NCBI GenBank assembly: GCA_025359065.1 | Contig: JANYHM010000040.1 | Span: 62,001-126,000, forward strand | Reading direction: 5' to 3' | DNA from: Synechococcales cyanobacterium GL140_1_metabinner_5_sub | Lineage (GTDB): Bacteria > Cyanobacteriota > Cyanobacteriia > Cyanobacteriales > Chamaesiphonaceae | Length of the DNA: 64,000 bases | Part shown: piece by piece, positions 7,948-38,638 of the stretch | How positions within the stretch are numbered: position 1 is the first letter of the stretch | Layout of the letters: each line of letters opens with the position of its first letter | Notes under the pieces: generated by a model | Seen by the model: the letters and a program-made list of their open reading frames with translations, nothing else | Told to the model about the DNA's origin: nothing | The model's database searches: none | Made by a program: the position numbers and the translations under genes

Positions 7948-9666
7948 ATGTTTGTTTGTCCCCAGTGCAGCTCCCAAAACCCCATCGACCACCGCTTTTG
8001 CCAGCAATGTGGTTTCCAGTTAGTTCAAAAATTGGCTGTAGTCGAAGAGTTAGCCGATGCAACAGGCCAACCTACCAATCCGCAGGTCGATGAACCAGAG
8101 CCATCGGTACCGCCGACTTTGGCTCTAGATAGTAATTCTCGCTATCGAATTGTTTCCTCTGCTCCGGCAATGCTAGATACCAAATTAGTGCAAGTACTAG
8201 ATGCCCATCCGAAGCAACCTTCCGCGCTGCAAGAATTTATGGCACAGCAGCCGCCGATCGACAGCAAAGCATATCTGGGTAAAACTCCCAGTGACTATCC
8301 AGAATGGGAGCTTTGGGAACGGGGCGGAATTAATCCTGCTGCTCGCCCGTATTTAGCCCTGCAACCTGCATTGAGCAGCATTCCTCAGCTTTGTGATGCC
8401 TGGAAAGACCAGCGTCGCAGTGTTTTAGTGCTAAATGCACCTACCACTCATCAACAATTGACCACGATCTGCCAAGACGACCAGTTGCCCCGCAAAGAGC
8501 TGCAAGGCTGGCTAGAAGAAATGTTGCAGCTTTGGAGCTACCTCAAACCCTGGTCTGTGCGTTCGAGCTTGTTAGATCTAAATAATTTGTATCTGAACGC
8601 CGATCGACAGCTTTATCTTCGCTGCTTGATTAATGAACCTAGTGAGCAACCCCCCACTCCCAACGACCTAGCGAAGATTTGGCAGCAGCTTGGTCACAGT
8701 CAAGATCTAGGTTGGCAACAATCACTCACAGAACTTATTGCTACCGAAAATCTCACTGTTGATAACCTGCATCACGGACTCAGCCAGCTTTCAGCTACTG
8801 CTGCTACCGAGATTGCTGAAGCTTTTGAACCCACTACTTCGCTGTTTTTGGCTCCTCGTTTATTAGGCGTAGAAGCTGCTGCCGCTACAGATGTCGGTAG
8901 ACAGCGCGATCACAACGAAGATTATTACAGCATTGATAGCAGCTTTACTCAATGCCAAAGCCCCGAAATCCAAACCACTACTGGTCGAGGATTATATATT
9001 TTGTGCGATGGCATGGGTGGCCATGCCGCTGGTGAAGTTGCTAGCAAAATGACGACTGAGAAGCTAAAAGAGTATTGGGAAAGCCATTGGTGCGACGATG
9101 TTTTGCCCAGCGAAGAAGAAATCATCGCGGCGATTCACTATGCCAACCAAGCCCTATTTGAAATAAATCAAGGAAATTCTTCTTCTGGTAGCGGCCGGAT
9201 GGGCACCACGCTAGTAATGGTGATGCTTCAAGATAACCAGGTGGCGATCGCCCATGTAGGGGACTCCCGCTGTTATTTACTCGAAGCCAGCAGTCAGCCA
9301 GTGCAAATTACCCTGGATCATGAAGTTGGTCAAAGAGAAATGCTGCGAGGCGTAGAGCCAGAAATCGCCTATGGTCGCCCTGATGCTTATCAGCTTACCC
9401 AGGCGATCGGTCCCCGTGACCAGTCGGTTATTTCGCCTGACGTGCAAATTTTTAGCCTGCGTGAAGATACGCTGATTCTGATCGCTTCCGATGGTTTGAC
9501 CGATCGAGATTTGGTCGAAGAAAATGGTGAAGCGCTGCTGCGACCATTGGTTAATCGGCAAATTTCCCTGCACCAAGGAGTGAAGCAACTAGTTGAGTTT
9601 GCCAATGGCTACAATGGTCACGACAACATTACGGCGATCGCTGTGCGCATTCAGATTGGGAAATAA
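7948..9666 (+). CDS. PP2C-type Ser/Thr phosphatase with N-terminal zinc ribbon
   Basis: A 572-residue protein. Residues 1-30 form a zinc ribbon with two CxxC pairs (CPQC and CQQC). A ~270-residue middle region of unknown fold follows, then a PP2C domain from about residue 310. Metal-binding motifs of PP2C are all visible: DVGRQRDHNED, CDGMGGHAAGE, HVGDSRCYLL, IASDGLTDRDL and GHDNITAIAV. It should remove phosphate from Ser/Thr in a metal-dependent way. An FHA-kinase gene follows 39 bp downstream on the same strand, which suggests a kinase/phosphatase pair acting on shared targets. It is divergent from dnaG. Confidence 0.93.
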   Translation: MFVCPQCSSQNPIDHRFCQQCGFQLVQKLAVVEELADATGQPTNPQVDEPEPSVPPTLALDSNSRYRIVSSAPAMLDTKLVQVLDAHPKQPSALQEFMAQQPPIDSKAYLGKTPSDYPEWELWERGGINPAARPYLALQPALSSIPQLCDAWKDQRRSVLVLNAPTTHQQLTTICQDDQLPRKELQGWLEEMLQLWSYLKPWSVRSSLLDLNNLYLNADRQLYLRCLINEPSEQPPTPNDLAKIWQQLGHSQDLGWQQSLTELIATENLTVDNLHHGLSQLSATAATEIAEAFEPTTSLFLAPRLLGVEAAAATDVGRQRDHNEDYYSIDSSFTQCQSPEIQTTTGRGLYILCDGMGGHAAGEVASKMTTEKLKEYWESHWCDDVLPSEEEIIAAIHYANQALFEINQGNSSSGSGRMGTTLVMVMLQDNQVAIAHVGDSRCYLLEASSQPVQITLDHEVGQREMLRGVEPEIAYGRPDAYQLTQAIGPRDQSVISPDVQIFSLREDTLILIASDGLTDRDLVEENGEALLRPLVNRQISLHQGVKQLVEFANGYNGHDNITAIAVRIQIGK

Positions 9667-32593: not shown

Positions 32594-33111
32594 CAAAGAT
32601 TTCTAGCAATTCCAAATTCAACTTTGAGAGACATCTGCAGCTAAAGTGCGGACTACAGGTGGAAAGTTCTTTCAGGATCTTTCCATGCTTTTTTTTGCCG
32701 TCAAAATCTGACCAATTTGCATTGTGGTTTGATGAATGTAGTGGCTCAGCAATGAAAACGTGTTCCTGTGGGGTAGCAACTTAAGACAGGACATTGTTGC
32801 ACTTGCCCTCACCCCAGCCCTCTCCCAAGTTTGGGAGAGGGAGCAAGAGACTACGTGGAATGATCCGGCTCCCCTTCTCCCAAATTTGGGAGAAGGGGCT
32901 GGGGGATGAGGGCAAGTGCAATATTTCTGCTATTTTGTCTCGCATTAAGTTGATACCCTTCCTGTGATGACTTTTACCACTGATTAAAATATCAACTAGC
33001 CGGAGCTTTCAACCTTACAGATAGAATGCTGTATAGGCTGAGTACCCTAGAATTATCTATCGCCAAGATGTCATAATCTAAAAGTTGATCTGTGCGTGAC
33101 TCGACGACCAC
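32594..33111. other. Intergenic region holding MITE copy 1
   Basis: These 518 bases contain no supported gene. The main content is the 125-bp inverted-repeat element described separately at 32797-32921. The rest is AT-rich leader before the kinase-FGE gene. Confidence 0.6.
32797..32921. repeat. MITE-like palindromic element, copy 1
   Basis: The element is bounded by terminal inverted repeats TTGCACTTGCCCTC and GAGGGCAAGTGCAA. It contains two inner hairpins, CCCTCTCCCAA/TTGGGAGAGGG and CCCTTCTCCCAA/TTGGGAGAAGGG. A second copy of exactly the same length, with a few substitutions, lies at 35372-35496. Short flanks (ACATTG on the left, TCTGCTATT on the right) are also shared, so the mobile unit may be about 145 bp. 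No transposase is inside. Confidence 0.85.
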
Positions 33112-35010
33112 ATGGCTGAAAAACTTTTAAAAAATTGTTATTTGATTGAAAATGTCGATCGAGACCAGCTTGGCGCAGGTTCTTTTGGCAAAACTTATTT
33201 AGCCAGAGACACCAGATACAAAAGCATTGTCAATGTGGTGGTTAAGCATTTACAGCCACCCCCAGGGAAGTTTGATGAGGCGCTGAAGTTTTTCAAACGG
33301 GAAGCAGAGGTACTAAAAAAGTTGGGTAGTGTGCATCCTCAAATCCCAACGTTGGTGGATTTTTTTGCTGAAGGCAATGAATTTTATTTGGTGCAGGAGT
33401 GGATTGATGGCGACACGCTGAGCAGTGTTTTGACCTACGGTCAGCGATGGACTCAAAAAGACACGATCGATTTGCTGATTGAAATACTGGAGCCGTTAAC
33501 ATTTTGCCACGCTGAAGGCACTATTCACCGCGACTTAAAACCATCAAACCTGATGCGTCGCCGGGAAGATCAGCAGCTAGTGATTATTGATTTTGGGGCA
33601 GTGCGCGAAATTGGGCAGTTAACTCTGCTGCCTAATGGTGAAGAGCGCCCTGGTTCGGTCATTGGAACACCAGGATATGCTTCGCCGGAACAATCATCGC
33701 TAAGTTCTCCTTCTCCGGTGTTGGCCAGTGATATTTACGCGGTGGGGGCGATCGGTATCCAAGCAATGACTGGACTGTCACCTGATATGATTGACACTCC
33801 GTTTGAAGAAATTCCTCGGTGGTGGGAAGTGCCAAATTGCACTAACGCTACTCCAGAATTCACTGCTGTACTAAACAAAATGTTGGCATTTTCGCCCAAG
33901 GCTCGTTACTATGATGCCTCGGCAACACTAGAGGCGCTGAGAGCCATCACTGCAAAATATCCATCAGGAATTTCCGCTAAGCCAATTAATTCACCACCTA
34001 CGCCGCAACCATCCACTCCGTTGCCGTCAGTGGTCACACAGCCCAGCATTGTTATTCCAGGATCTCCTTCGTCAATTGAAATTTCGCCAGCTTCTAAGTT
34101 TGTAAGTAAGGCTGGTCAACTCAGCCAAGAAATATTTACTTTTGAAACTGCCAAGTTAGAGGAAATTTCTGTAGAAGAAGTCGAGATCGTGAAAAAGCCA
34201 GGATGGTTAGGCTTTGGCGAGAGAGAAAAACAAGTAACTACAATGGTGCAAGTCTGGCAAATTAAAAAGAGTCATGGTAAAGCGGAGCGCTTTATCGAAA
34301 ATTTAGGCGATGGTGTGAGCCTAGAGATGGTTTATGTGCCAGCCGGTAGCTTCATGATGGGTTCTGAGGAACAGGAACGTGAAAAACCAAGGCATGTGGT
34401 GAATGTACCCGGTTTTTATATGGGCAGGTACCAAGTTACTCAAGAGCAATATCTGAAGATAACTAGTGAAAATCCTTCTCAGTGGCAAGATGCTAAGTTA
34501 CCGGTAGAGCGGGTATCATGGCATGAGGCTCAGATATTTTGTCAACAATTAAATGTTTGCACCGGTAAAGAGTTTCGATTGCCCAGTGAGGCTGAGTGGG
34601 AATATGCCTGTAGAGCCAATACTGATACGCCATTTCACTTTGGGGAAACTATCAGTACAGAATTAGCTAACTATAATGGGGATTTTGTCTATGGGTCAGG
34701 AGTTAAAGGGGTTTATAGAAATCAGACTACTCCTGTTGGTAGTTTCCCTGCAAATGGCTTTGGATTGCACGATATGCATGGCAATATTTTGGAATGGTGT
34801 TTAGATAGTTGGCATGATAATTATCAAGGCGCACCGATCAATGGTAGTTCCTGGACGAGCCAGAGAAATAGTGCTCATGTACTGCGCGGCGGCTCGTGCA
34901 TCGACGTTCCTAATTACTGCCGTTCGGCTGATCGCAGCAGGAACAGGCTAGCTTTCCACTACGACTTCATTGGTTTTCGAGTAGTGTATGCCCTAGCGAG
35001 GACTTCTTAA
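33112..35010 (+). CDS. Ser/Thr kinase fused to an FGE-sulfatase (SUMF1) domain, probable DGR target
   Basis: A 632-residue protein. Residues 1-280 are a Hanks-type kinase (GAGSFGKTYLARD, VVVKHL lysine, IHRDLKPSNLM, IIDFGAVRE, GTPGYASPEQ). A Pro/Ser-rich linker follows. Residues ~395-632 form an FGE-sulfatase (SUMF1) domain (LEMVYVPAGSFMMGS, FYMGRYQVTQEQY, FRLPSEAEWEYACRA, GLHDMHGNILEW). The last 45 residues, from HVLRGGS to IGFRVV, look like a DGR variable region: codons expected to be AAC or AAT in the template read ATC, GAC, GTT, TAC, AGC, TTC, CAC and similar. FGE-fold proteins are known DGR targets in cyanobacteria. The FGE domain would be the diversified binding face and the kinase the output; both points are inference. 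Confidence 0.88.
   Translation: MAEKLLKNCYLIENVDRDQLGAGSFGKTYLARDTRYKSIVNVVVKHLQPPPGKFDEALKFFKREAEVLKKLGSVHPQIPTLVDFFAEGNEFYLVQEWIDGDTLSSVLTYGQRWTQKDTIDLLIEILEPLTFCHAEGTIHRDLKPSNLMRRREDQQLVIIDFGAVREIGQLTLLPNGEERPGSVIGTPGYASPEQSSLSSPSPVLASDIYAVGAIGIQAMTGLSPDMIDTPFEEIPRWWEVPNCTNATPEFTAVLNKMLAFSPKARYYDASATLEALRAITAKYPSGISAKPINSPPTPQPSTPLPSVVTQPSIVIPGSPSSIEISPASKFVSKAGQLSQEIFTFETAKLEEISVEEVEIVKKPGWLGFGEREKQVTTMVQVWQIKKSHGKAERFIENLGDGVSLEMVYVPAGSFMMGSEEQEREKPRHVVNVPGFYMGRYQVTQEQYLKITSENPSQWQDAKLPVERVSWHEAQIFCQQLNVCTGKEFRLPSEAEWEYACRANTDTPFHFGETISTELANYNGDFVYGSGVKGVYRNQTTPVGSFPANGFGLHDMHGNILEWCLDSWHDNYQGAPINGSSWTSQRNSAHVLRGGSCIDVPNYCRSADRSRNRLAFHYDFIGFRVVYALARTS
34879..35010 (+). other. Candidate DGR variable region (VR)
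   Basis: This is the last part of the kinase-FGE gene. A constant frame (RGGS...P..CRSA.R.R...IGFRVV) is interspersed with codons that differ from AAC/AAT only at their A positions: ATC 34900, GAC 34903, GTT 34906, TAC 34915, GAT 34930, AGC 34936, TTC 34954, CAC 34957, TAC 34960, GAC 34963 and TTC 34966. The constant end (GGTTTTCGAGTAGTGT) then a short hairpin at 35038-35055 matches the layout of an IMH and adjoining stem-loop. Neither template repeat nor reverse transcriptase was found in the window. Confidence 0.65.
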
Positions 35011-35037
35011 CCCTTTGTTCTCTTGCTCTTTTGCCCT

Positions 35038-35055
35038 TTGAGCGCGAAGCGCAAG
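35038..35055 (+). other. Small GC-rich hairpin just after the variable region
   Basis: TTGAGCGC-GA-AGCGCAAG can fold into a tight stem 28 bp after the stop codon. Hairpins close to the 3' end of VR are part of retrohoming target recognition in studied DGRs; here that role is only inferred. There is no T-run, so it is not an evident terminator. Confidence 0.4.
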
Positions 35056-35072
35056 TGATTAGTTGCCTTTTT

Positions 35073-35147
35073 ATGGATGAAGCTGATTACAAAATACGTG
35101 ATAGCCCACTATTACAGAACATCCGCAAAGAAGGAGTTTTGCTATGA
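35073..35147 (+). pseudogene. C-terminal remnant of an MNT-type nucleotidyltransferase antitoxin
   Basis: A 24-codon frame reads DYKIRDSPLLQNIRKEGVLL and stops in an ATGA overlap with the next remnant. This is the conserved C-terminal tail of MinD/MNT nucleotidyltransferase antitoxins (typically xSPLxxxIRxEGxLL). The catalytic GSxxxG region is absent, so the gene is truncated at its 5' side, close to the end of the DGR variable region. Confidence 0.6.
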
Positions 35148-35648
35148 CCGACGAGCAACGAGAACTTTTACTCAAAGCCCAGCATAGCCTATCGGCAGCC
35201 CAACTGCTCTTAGCTAACAACTATCCAGAGTATGCGAGTTCCTCCTGACTTTCACCGCTTTTTAATTGAATCTCAAGAACTATGCACCACTAGCGACTAA
35301 GTAGGTAAATCTAATTAAACTTTAGATAATTTTAGTCTTGGTAAGGGATAACAATTTTAAGCGGTACATTGTTGCACTTGCCCTCTCCCCAGCCCTCTCC
35401 CAAACTTGGGAGAGGGAGCAAGAGACTACGTTAGATGTTCCGGCTCCCCTTCTCCCAGAATTGGGAGAAGGGGTTGGGGGATGAGGGCAAGTGCAAGGTC
35501 TCTGCTATTCTTGGCAAGGCTTTCAGGTCATCTCATTTTACATTTAATTGCTTGTGCCTACTTATGGACAGCTCAATCCAGTGAACAAACTGATCGTGCT
35601 CAGCAGTTTTTAGACTTGGCAATACAGGCAATTGGCAATGTTGATTAA
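35144..35648 (+). pseudogene. Broken HEPN-toxin gene with a deletion and a MITE insertion
   Basis: The first segment (35144-35248, AAGGAG ribosome site upstream) encodes MTDEQRELLLKAQHSLSAAQ and NNYPEYA, then stops. A second segment in another frame (35238-35300) reads VPPDFHRFLIESQEL, a later part of HEPN proteins, which implies that the middle, including the catalytic RxxxxH region, is deleted. The final part (35577-35648) reads SEQTDRAQQFLDLAIQAIG, resembling the HEPN C-terminus, and lies beyond an inserted 125-bp MITE. The toxin cannot be functional. Confidence 0.6.
35372..35496. repeat. MITE-like palindromic element, copy 2
   Basis: Same 125-bp length, terminal inverted repeats (TTGCACTTGCCCTC/GAGGGCAAGTGCAA) and inner hairpins as the copy at 32797. 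It lies inside the HEPN remnant, between the segment ending at 35300 and the one beginning at 35577. Shared flanks ACATTG and TCTGCTATT extend the match slightly on both sides. The two copies bracket the kinase-FGE gene as direct repeats. Confidence 0.85.
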
Positions 35649-35698
35649 TTCTTAGATTTGCTAGTATGATGTTTTCAAGTAGTGAATAGGTGTACATT

Positions 35699-35884
35699 AT
35701 GCAAATAGATAGAATTACTATCAATCCTAAACAAATGAATGGTCAGCCCTGTATTCGCAACATGCGACTGACAGTTAAACGAATAGTTGAATTATTGGCG
35801 GTTTACCCCGATCGATCAGAACTATTCCAAGAATTTCCAGAGCTAGAAGAAGACATCCAACAAGCCTTGTTCACTACACATTGA
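35699..35884 (+). CDS. DUF433-family antitoxin-like protein
   Basis: A 61-residue protein with the DUF433 pattern ITINPKQMNGQPCIRNMRLTV, a winged-helix-like domain often found upstream of PIN-like toxins. The family usually runs a few residues further (ALxFAAxxL); here it ends ALFTTH, so the C-terminus may be slightly truncated. The ATG at 35699 is preferred over the GTG at 35690. No DUF5615-type toxin follows, so it looks like an orphan antitoxin. Confidence 0.75.
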   Translation: MQIDRITINPKQMNGQPCIRNMRLTVKRIVELLAVYPDRSELFQEFPELEEDIQQALFTTH

Positions 35885-35894
35885 GATTTTAACT

Positions 35895-36179
35895 ATGACA
35901 AAAACAACTGTAGAACGCCAAAACTTAATTGAGACCATCAACACCCTACCAGACGAAGCTCTGATCGAGCTGGCCAGTTTTATGGAATACCTTCGGTTTA
36001 AAACAGTCCAATATCAAAACACTGAACCTCCCAAGCAAAATTTTTTACTGGCGATCGCAGGTCTAGGAGATTCTGGACAATCAGATATTTCAGACTGTGA
36101 CGAAGCAATTCTCTGCAATGAAATCGACCCGATACATGGCTGGATCAGCACCCCCAGGACTCCACAACGATCACGTTAA
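35895..36179 (+). CDS. DUF2281-like antitoxin-like protein
   Basis: A 94-residue protein. The N-terminal part (LIETINTLPDEALIELASFMEYLRFK) and the central NFLLAIAGLGDSGQSDIS and EILCNEIDP-like segments fit the VapB-like proteins that precede PIN toxins in cyanobacteria. In intact members the protein ends soon after NEIDPIxGW; here an Arg/Pro-rich tail (STPRTPQRSR) is appended, suggesting a 3' end change. No toxin gene follows. It lies 10 bp after the DUF433 gene. Confidence 0.65.
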   Translation: MTKTTVERQNLIETINTLPDEALIELASFMEYLRFKTVQYQNTEPPKQNFLLAIAGLGDSGQSDISDCDEAILCNEIDPIHGWISTPRTPQRSR

Positions 36180-36812
36180 TATCAACCGCTTATTTTTTTG
36201 TTATTCATAATAAGAATGCGGGATGTGGGAAACTCAGTGGCTTTAGCCCTGAGAGGGAAGCGACTCGGGGGACTTTAGTCCCCTTCTGCCGATAGGCAAA
36301 AAGAAAAACTAAAGTTGCACCATTTTTGCTATATTAACTAAAGTTGCAGATAGTAAATTCAACTACGTGTCGAACCATTCCTAGTAAGGGTGTAATCCCC
36401 GCCAACTTAGTACGGCTATAGAGAGCCAACACAAAAAGGGTAAGCAATGGCAGGGTGGGGAGCGTACCGAACTGGCTAGCGTTGAACCTTTGAAGCAATT
36501 AAAAGATAAAAGTAAGCGCAATTGCAATACCTCTTGTATGGGTAGTTGTTTTGAGCGTCTAGAGGCACCCTTGACAGTCGCCTTTAATAGCGTTGATGGC
36601 TATCAAGCTGGAGTTATTAAGAATCTCTGTGGCTTTAGCCCTGAGAGTGTCAATCCGAGATTTCATGGTGAGCAAAATCGATCGAAGATAATCTACATTT
36701 TGGGGTTCCCCACCATAGCGTCAAGCCACAAAGGCCACAACAATCGGCTCCATCATCAGGCCGATCGAACCATCCAGACCCTGCCAACGCAGCATTGCAA
36801 GTTTGACTTGAC
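36180..36812. other. Intergenic region with IS-end-like hairpins
   Basis: These 633 bases contain no convincing gene; the 140-residue frame at 36490-36912 has no recognisable features and overlaps the opposing Rpn gene. Two hairpin motifs sharing the 19-mer GTGGCTTTAGCCCTGAGAG lie at 36237 and 36629, and a further hairpin, GGGGGACTTTAGTCCCC, is at 36268. The most economical explanation is a decayed IS200/IS605-type element. Confidence 0.5.
36233..36653 (+). mobile_element. Probable IS200/IS605-like remnant (end hairpins, omega-RNA-like segment)
   Basis: At 36621-36653 the sequence GAATC, a hairpin CTCTGTGGC-TTTA-GCCCTGAGAG, and then TGTCAA matches the form of IS200/IS605 right ends in cyanobacteria. 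A similar hairpin (CTCAGTGGCTTTAGCCCTGAG) is at 36233. The intervening DNA has no TnpB frame, but the part before the right-end hairpin is rich in local stems, as expected for a TnpB guide RNA scaffold. This rests on pattern memory and needs a search. Confidence 0.35.
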
Positions 36813-37814
36813 TCAGGGACGTTGTGCCAACCAATCTATTAAGTTCTCAATACTGCTGAAATCCATCGCTGCTTCGTGGAGAGATTCTAGTTGTTCGATC
36901 GACAGTTGTTGAATTTGATGGGCCACAGCCTTTGGTACTGACTCAAACTTGCGTACTAGCAGCCGTTGCACCAGCCGTTCGATCATTTGCCGTCCTTGTT
37001 CAAGTCCTTGTTCAAGTCCTCGTTCAAGTCCTTGTTCAAGTCCCTTTTCTAGCCAGCTTGTTGTAAGTTGCATGATTTTCTCTCGTTCTTGAGGCATTTT
37101 AATTTTAGCAACTTCTGCCTGAAAGCTGTCTTCCTCAATAGCATTAAGCCGTAAATATGTATCTACAAAGCTAGAGATGAGAAAGCTGCGGGCAGGGTCT
37201 AGTTTGAGAGTGACCAGCAATCGCAGGCATTCTACTTTTACCTTGGGTCGGTCTTCAGGAGCGATGCGCATTTTAGCCATGAGGGCGGCTGCAATGGGGT
37301 TTTGGTACTGGAGAAAATCTCGCCAGTTGAGACGATTGAGTTGGACGGCATGAAATTTGAAGCTCAGGACATCTAAACCGGGCAGTGTGATCCGGTACTC
37401 GCTGAGTTCTGGGCGATATGGGGTCTCGAAGGAAAAGATAACCAAGGGATAAATAGGAATGCGATGTTGGTTGTGCAGTTGGGAAAAGTAGAAGAAAATC
37501 CGCTGCTCGAATTGAGCCTTGCTGAGAGCTTGGTTTTCGAGGTGGATTAATACCATTTGGGCTTGGGATGGGCGGCGTTTGCCGGAAGCCGGTTGGGATA
37601 GAGGAACTTGGAGTTCTACTCTGGCAAGGAGGTCAATAGCTTTACGCTCACCTTCAATGAGATCAGTGAAATATTCTTGGGGTAAGAATTCTACGGTGTC
37701 TGGTTGGATGTGGCTGAGCAGTTCTGGGGCAAAGAGGGCTAGAAAATCCAAAAAGAAGGTTTGAATTAGCTGCTTAAACAGTTGGTCATGGTCGATGGAG
37801 TTGTTCATACGCAT
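36813..37814 (-). CDS. Rpn-family PD-(D/E)XK nuclease/transposase-like protein
   Basis: A protein of 333 residues. The N-terminus (HDQLFKQLIQTFFLDFLALFAPEL) and the core (KAIDLLARVEL, then VLIHLENQA) show the PD-(D/E)XK pattern of Rpn recombination-promoting nucleases. The middle YPLVIFSFETP and the C-terminal DUF4351-like helices are also typical. A tract of GLEQG/GLERG repeats near residue 265 is encoded by near-identical 12-bp units. The ATG at 37814 is preferred over the TTG at 37829, which overlaps the nitrilase gene. Such genes are abundant and mobile in cyanobacteria. Confidence 0.82.
   Translation of the reverse strand: MRMNNSIDHDQLFKQLIQTFFLDFLALFAPELLSHIQPDTVEFLPQEYFTDLIEGERKAIDLLARVELQVPLSQPASGKRRPSQAQMVLIHLENQALSKAQFEQRIFFYFSQLHNQHRIPIYPLVIFSFETPYRPELSEYRITLPGLDVLSFKFHAVQLNRLNWRDFLQYQNPIAAALMAKMRIAPEDRPKVKVECLRLLVTLKLDPARSFLISSFVDTYLRLNAIEEDSFQAEVAKIKMPQEREKIMQLTTSWLEKGLEQGLERGLEQGLEQGRQMIERLVQRLLVRKFESVPKAVAHQIQQLSIEQLESLHEAAMDFSSIENLIDWLAQRP
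36996..37050 (-). repeat. 12-bp tandem repeats encoding GLEQ/GLER
   Basis: Four to five near-identical units (CAAGTCCTTGTT on the plus strand) sit inside the Rpn gene and encode EKGLEQGLERGLEQGLEQG. The number of units is likely to vary between strains through slippage without changing the frame. Confidence 0.75.
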
Positions 37815-37825
37815 CAAAAATTTGA

Positions 37826-38638
37826 TCAACCAAACATCCGATGCTGCAAGGAAGGCATCTGACGACGCACCTGCGCCAATCGACTAGGCGAAATCTCTGC
37901 TACTGCCACTCCAGGAGCATCGCCAGCATCTGCTAACACCACTCCCCAAGGATCTACAATCATGGCGTGACCATGAGTATAGCGCATGGCATAGTGGTTG
38001 CCGGTTTGTGCTGGAGCCAAGACATAACAGGTGTTCTCGATCGCCCTAGCCTGCAACAACACCTGCCAATGATCCTTCCCGGTATAAGCCGTAAAAGCCG
38101 CTGGCACAAACAACACCTCAGCCCCCTGCTTAGAAAGATGCCGATATAGCTCTGGAAACCTTACGTCATAGCAAACCGACAGACCTAAATTCCCCAACTC
38201 TTCTGATTTATAGACCTCTGGTAGCTCATTACCAGCTTTCACTGTTTTAGATTCCAAGTAAGTATTGCCGTCAGGTAGATCCACATCAAACAAATGCACT
38301 TTCTGATATCTTGATAGCTCCTGACCATCGGGACCGATCAGCAAAGCCGTGTTGTAAACCTGATTTTCGCCAGCAGGTGTAGGAAAACCACCACCAAGCA
38401 AAGTAATTTGAAACTTTTGGGCAGCCGTTTTTAAGAATTTTTCAGTGGAAACAGCAATCTGGCTAGCTTGGGCAATTTTGGCTCCTTCTTGACCCAAAAA
38501 AGCAAAATTTTCTGGTAGAGACACCAACTCAGCACCGCGCCTCACCGCCAAATCGATCAGCTCCTCGGCCTGTGCCAAGTTCTGTTCCAGGTTGGGGGAG
38601 CTAGTCATCTGAACGGCAGCGGCGAGATAAGATTTCAT
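37826..38638 (-). CDS. Carbon-nitrogen hydrolase (Nit1/NIT2-like)
   Basis: A 270-residue nitrilase-superfamily amidase. The catalytic Glu-Lys-Cys triad is visible in VSLPENFAF, YQKVHLFDVDLPDG and SVCYDVRFPELYR. The arrangement, including HLFDVDLPDGNTYLES, fits the Nit1 branch, whose members hydrolyse deaminated glutathione as a repair reaction, although other amidase substrates cannot be excluded. The gene ends in DNA that overlaps the possible TTG start of the Rpn gene. petL lies about 67 bp upstream on the same strand. Confidence 0.9.
   Translation of the reverse strand: MKSYLAAAVQMTSSPNLEQNLAQAEELIDLAVRRGAELVSLPENFAFLGQEGAKIAQASQIAVSTEKFLKTAAQKFQITLLGGGFPTPAGENQVYNTALLIGPDGQELSRYQKVHLFDVDLPDGNTYLESKTVKAGNELPEVYKSEELGNLGLSVCYDVRFPELYRHLSKQGAEVLFVPAAFTAYTGKDHWQVLLQARAIENTCYVLAPAQTGNHYAMRYTHGHAMIVDPWGVVLADAGDAPGVAVAEISPSRLAQVRRQMPSLQHRMFG

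Follow-up and report, generated by a model that had tools for sequence, protein, structure and literature searches.

A probable orphan variable region of a diversity-generating retroelement in a cyanobacterial Ser/Thr kinase gene

Introduction

Treponema denticola TvpA and Mtd of Bordetella phage BPP-1 are targets of complete diversity-generating retroelements (DGRs). In BPP-1, the IMH is followed by a hairpin (PMC3240598). In cyanobacteria, the remote variable proteins of DGRs include Ser/Thr kinases grafted to a C-terminal C-type-lectin (CLec) domain, and these kinase-CLec targets are dispersed away from the DGR itself (Vallota-Eastman et al., 2020; PMC7517822). According to a published hypothesis, the CLec face may autoinhibit the kinase or select its substrates (PMC7517822).

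Here we compare with these systems a locus found in a stretch of cyanobacterial DNA of 64,000 nucleotides (the window). The 3' end of the gene at 33112-35010 is, as judged from its sequence, a DGR variable region (VR) and a real feature. Together with the searches for a reverse transcriptase (RT) and a template repeat (TR) described below, it is best read as a probable orphan, and most likely fossil, remote VR.

Results

A kinase gene with a variable 3' end

The following features of the gene are referred to throughout:

33112-35010, forward strand: intact kinase-FGE gene encoding 632 amino acids (open reading frame, Pfam domains, translation)
Amino acids 18-266: N-terminal Hanks-type Ser/Thr kinase domain (Pfam PF00069, 4.6e-35)
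Amino acids 405-625: C-terminal FGE-sulfatase/C-type-lectin-fold domain (Pfam PF03781, 4.5e-53)
34882-34986, forward strand: DGR-type VR, with a TR-derived scaffold and NNY codons at the TR-Asn positions (match to the sibling's TR, A-biased differences, end of homology)
34897-34899, forward strand: codon 596, TGC (Cys) against TGG (Trp) in the TRs read, a non-adenine change

The GxGxxG, HRDLKPSN and DFG motifs of the kinase are readable in the translation, and the solved structures related in sequence to the FGE domain include the DGR variable protein TvpA (PDB 2y3c, 1.2e-20). Domain and structure-relative searches thus show the VR to be 3'-terminal in a gene of the C-type-lectin/FGE fold. An AlphaFold model of the FGE domain, computed from a 3-row alignment, was unusable (pLDDT 33). 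The lectin-like domain may gate or direct the kinase.

The first-pass annotation had described a constant scaffold in the FGE tail, interrupted by codons that resemble mutagenized asparagine codons. Both are present at 34882-35010, with CGC GGC GGC TC., CCT, TGC CGT TCG GCT, CGC and ATT GGT TTT CGA GTA GTG as the scaffold, and all 11 TR-Asn positions read NNY. As evidence for a VR, however, the codon pattern is weak: the same columns read NNY in 10/11 cases in the closest homologue of the sibling and in 8/11 and 9/11 in two conserved non-DGR paralogues of the same genome, while NNY makes up 49% of all codons in the kinase-FGE gene. The count does not discriminate, and we dropped it as proof. 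Taken alone, these numbers would fit an ordinary divergence of the FGE fold, in which the Asn-rich NNY codons reflect loop composition and no DGR ever acted.

What disfavours that reading is the comparison with a species of the same genus (the sibling, G001), whose contig C181 carries a complete DGR composed of a variable protein (VP) with a VR, Avd (NF033474, 1.1e-37), an RT with SQ...YVDD motifs (detected at 3.4e-254; 57-66% identical to DGR RTs from other genera of the order), a TR and a second VP. The VR of this second VP (L077) has a TR-type end, AGCACT with the TR flank, instead of AGGACT, and may be a non-recipient copy that arose by local duplication. Searched against the genome of the window, the sibling's TR has its significant match in the window VR only (82% over 55 bp, E=1e-8; runner-up E=0.43). 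Differences between the two fall on 17/28 A sites and 14/71 non-A sites (Fisher p=1.3e-4), and the bias persists without the indel zone (11/21 A vs 8/63 non-A, p=4.7e-4), control comparisons giving p=0.02-0.09. The differences are thus A-biased but not limited to A, and, since 14/71 non-A positions differ, the exact donor TR is not the one seen in the sibling; a cognate TR was not found in the genome of the window.

Over the scaffold, 46/51 positions are identical to the sibling's TR, against 35-37/51 to the homologue and paralogues (35/51 for the homologue). At the DNA level the closest homologue matches the gene at 72% over 1.8 kb, and this homology stops at 34855, just 5' of the VR. Between the two species, the FGE tail region is 97% identical in two orthologue pairs, so that the fold does not diverge fast by itself, but 38% in the pair formed by the window gene and its best sibling homologue, which we treat as homologues rather than proven orthologues because they are more divergent overall (68% over the whole gene, vs 92-93% for the two orthologue pairs) and lie in different contexts. 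With the tail signature described next, this leaves ordinary divergence, already disfavoured, with hardly any probability.

A recipient-type tail signature

Two further features follow the variable codons:

34996-35040, forward strand: recipient-type, IMH-like 3' signature GCGAGGACTTCTTAACCCTTTG with a pyrimidine tract (tail model)
35042-35052, forward strand: short inverted repeat GCGC[GAA]GCGC with a 4-bp stem, in the position of the 5-7 bp GC hairpin of active VRs

We read the tails of 18 DGR loci of the order. In most VRs the end reads AGGACTYTT-TAGCCCTTT and a pyrimidine tract comes next; most also have a GC hairpin of 5-7 bp, which stands 44-66 nt further on. The TRs typically carry AGCACT or AGTACT with a different flank; the window VR has AGGACT at this place. 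A nucleotide model of the tail, trained on 12 active VRs from other genera only, has a single significant match in the window, at 34972-35045 (44 bits; E=4.2e-13 for the 64 kb, with the second-best match at E=6.5). Across 1.12 Mb of DNA, all distinct matches of at least 14 bits lie behind FGE or VR tails, save two not recognized by a regular expression, which speaks against ordinary divergence; the conserved paralogues (C99 and C73) score about 1 bit or less and TRs at most 19 bits. The signature thus tells VRs apart from TRs as well as from ordinary FGE paralogues with no need of an RT, so that cyanobacterial DGR targets, whether remote or orphan, become directly countable.

The small hairpin after the stop codon noted in the first pass is there, 43 nt from AGGACT, but it amounts to the 4-bp inverted repeat listed above and its fold is weak (z -1.3 to -1.6), so we do not retain it as strong evidence for a VR. 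Alternatively, a run of T's behind a GC hairpin could mark a transcription terminator.

On the match to the sibling's TR, the A bias and the tail, the first-pass annotation was right that the Ser/Thr kinase ends in a DGR-type VR within its CLec/FGE fold, and this VR is of the type of remote target described in cyanobacteria (PMC7517822).

DGR components in the genome

The genome of the window (G000) is a draft assembly of 121 contigs that total 3.92 Mb, with a completeness of 99.84%. It contains no RVT_1 domain, and the sibling's DGR RT finds no match in it even at E<=10. No TR was found in it by DNA search, nor by a profile of the VR peptide, which recovers the sibling's TR and, in the genome of the window, retrieves four FGE tails and nothing else. 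In the first-pass annotation, a DGR at another place in the genome acts on the VR in trans, to be sought as a TR next to an RT; this assembly yielded neither, and the locus that holds the DGR in the sibling is empty here, so that this part of the annotation is not supported.

The empty site lies inside a 193-kb contig (G000:C34). The flank of the sibling's DGR aligns to it at 84% up to a ferredoxin gene, beyond which two genes that we take, by eye from their translations, to be rlu and trpA stand in place of the DGR. A search for the far flank of the sibling's DGR through trpA and rlu found nothing in the sibling, so the empty site is aligned on one side only. No DGR RT was found at E<=1e-60 in nine outgroup genomes of the same family; as these also lack one, the difference between the two genomes may reflect a loss here or a late gain in the sibling.

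The only other VR-type tail in the genome of the window (C28:140-298) forms the 3' terminus of an FGE gene whose halves lie at two contig ends, G000:C62:7315-8067 (the 5' part) and G000:C28:1-300 (L012/L189, L002/L190). This gene is a pseudogene: its reading frame is broken by two stops, and the start of its VR has received an IS4-like element (TIR CAATACGGTTCGGTTAA, 11-bp TSD GGGGCGGTTCT), which splits the gene.

Because neither RT nor TR was found in the genome, the most likely reading of the tail of the kinase gene is that a lost system left it behind as a frozen relic. Against the orphan state count the draft nature of the assembly and the known occurrence of cyanobacterial DGRs on plasmids, and against the fossil state that the VR is intact and in frame and retains AGGACT, as a live target would. 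These points would suit a remote VR that is still being diversified in trans by an RT and TR whose replicon, such as a plasmid or an unbinned contig, is not part of the assembly: DGR RTs are found on plasmids of Fischerella, Anabaena sp. 90, Nostoc, Acaryochloris and Microcystis, and remote targets occur commonly in this clade (PMC7517822). We nevertheless consider a live target improbable, given a nearly complete genome with no RT, TR or RVT_1 domain, VR DNA that matches no plasmid record and a second VR that belongs to a pseudogene. Codon 596 points the same way. TGG is otherwise near-invariant at this position, and Trp596Cys, which falls on a non-A codon of the TR, is beyond the reach of A-mutagenesis and hence outside the DGR mechanism; with the hairpin stem cut to 4 bp it suggests that the VR has not recently been rewritten, neither being proof. 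A phage or plasmid source of the TR was also considered and dropped, as there was neither a plasmid match for the VR nor an exact match of the scaffold in viral contigs.

The genomic block around the gene

The gene lies in a block that the sibling lacks at the syntenic site:

32594-37817: block of about 5.2 kb around the kinase-VR gene, missing from the syntenic site in the sibling (flank mapping)
32771-32958: MITE-like repeat upstream of the gene, with terminal inverted repeats and an 8-bp TSD, TTCCTGTG
About 35345-35535: second MITE-like copy

In the sibling, the flanks of the block are ~570 bp apart (query positions 1-2863 and 8087-8908 map to G001:C155:79668-82597 and 83169-83990). The missing block, the low overall identity of the gene to its best sibling homologue, the different context of that homologue and the outgroups without a DGR RT would all fit a horizontal import, by which the 5-kb block, or the 3' end of the gene, came ready-made from a DGR-bearing cyanobacterium into a lineage that never had a DGR. 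This is a sub-case of the orphan VR, with another history but the same present state. We regard it as rather unlikely, although less so than a live target, given that the scaffold DNA is close to VR and TR of the same genus and that the second, independent VR-type target on C62/C28 means that two imports would be needed.

The two MITE-like copies are in direct orientation and 87% identical over 165 nt, and represent a palindromic element of ~190 bp that is dispersed in the sibling too. Composite transposition of the gene by the two copies is unsupported, since the upstream copy has its own TSD. Just 3' of the VR, a 34-codon ORF fragment (35144-35248; MTDEQRELLLKAQHSLSAAQLLL...), HEPN-like by eye, is probably a gene remnant. 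The block further contains a DUF4351 protein (PF14261, 6.5e-16) on the minus strand at 36813-37829, a stretch 70% identical to a locus of the sibling (G001:C147).

Discussion

Our preferred reading, a probable orphan and most likely fossil VR, may be summarized as follows. A DGR of the cyanobacterial clade (RT, Avd and TR), present in an ancestor or else in the organism that donated the block, would have rewritten the last ~45 codons by adenine-mutagenized retrohoming into the C-type-lectin-like domain of the kinase, with the 3'-terminal AGGACT...CCCTTT/hairpin signature of the gene presumably serving as guide. The lineage would then have lost RT and TR, or, if it acquired the block by transfer, never have had them; what remains would be a dead target gene and a kinase whose ligand-binding face is fixed. 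The loss event and the present static state of the VR are what we infer here. The locus would then be a DGR target that outlived its DGR, seen in siblings with and without the system, with the site of the DGR empty and another target inactivated by an IS element.

VR-type tails of 23-49 bits also occur in seven genomes where no DGR RT was detected, although RT calls in these used E<=1e-60, so that RT remnants are possible there. The candidate orphan VRs are:

L185 (genome G011)
L023 (genome G015)
L021 (genome G018)
L029 (genome G030)
L038 (genome G035)
L033 (genome G036)
L018 (genome G038)

They suggest that an orphan VR is not unique to the genome of the window. Orphan VRs might, as we tentatively propose, be a recurrent end state, in which lineages use a DGR, lose RT and TR and keep a kinase-lectin receptor of fixed specificity. 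If so, the loss of a DGR would fix a binding face that had been selected, and such fossil receptors could be located in genomes without any RT by their tail signature (AGGACT...CCCTTT, pyrimidine tract, hairpin).

Among described systems, the remote targets of Vallota-Eastman et al. share with the window gene the architecture, the 3'-terminal VR and the distance from any RT, but were assigned to a DGR of the same genome (PMC7517822), whereas neither RT nor TR was found for the window gene. In Nostoc sp. PCC 7120, all3226 retains remnant TR-VR homology with no proximal RT (PMC7517822) and, like the window VR, lies away from RT genes; that strain, however, retains two DGRs, where the assembly analysed here yielded none. 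TvpA (PDB 2y3c) and Mtd likewise bear a C-terminal VR on a protein of the C-type-lectin fold; the window gene differs from them by its fusion to a kinase without a DGR and by a 4-bp stem in place of one of 7-10 bp. The AGGACT...CCCTTT tail with its hairpin resembles, by sequence, the IMH and hairpin of BPP-1 (PMC3240598). With no DGR detected in its genome, an empty site and a second, dead target, the VR is an informative case of a known kind rather than a new system.
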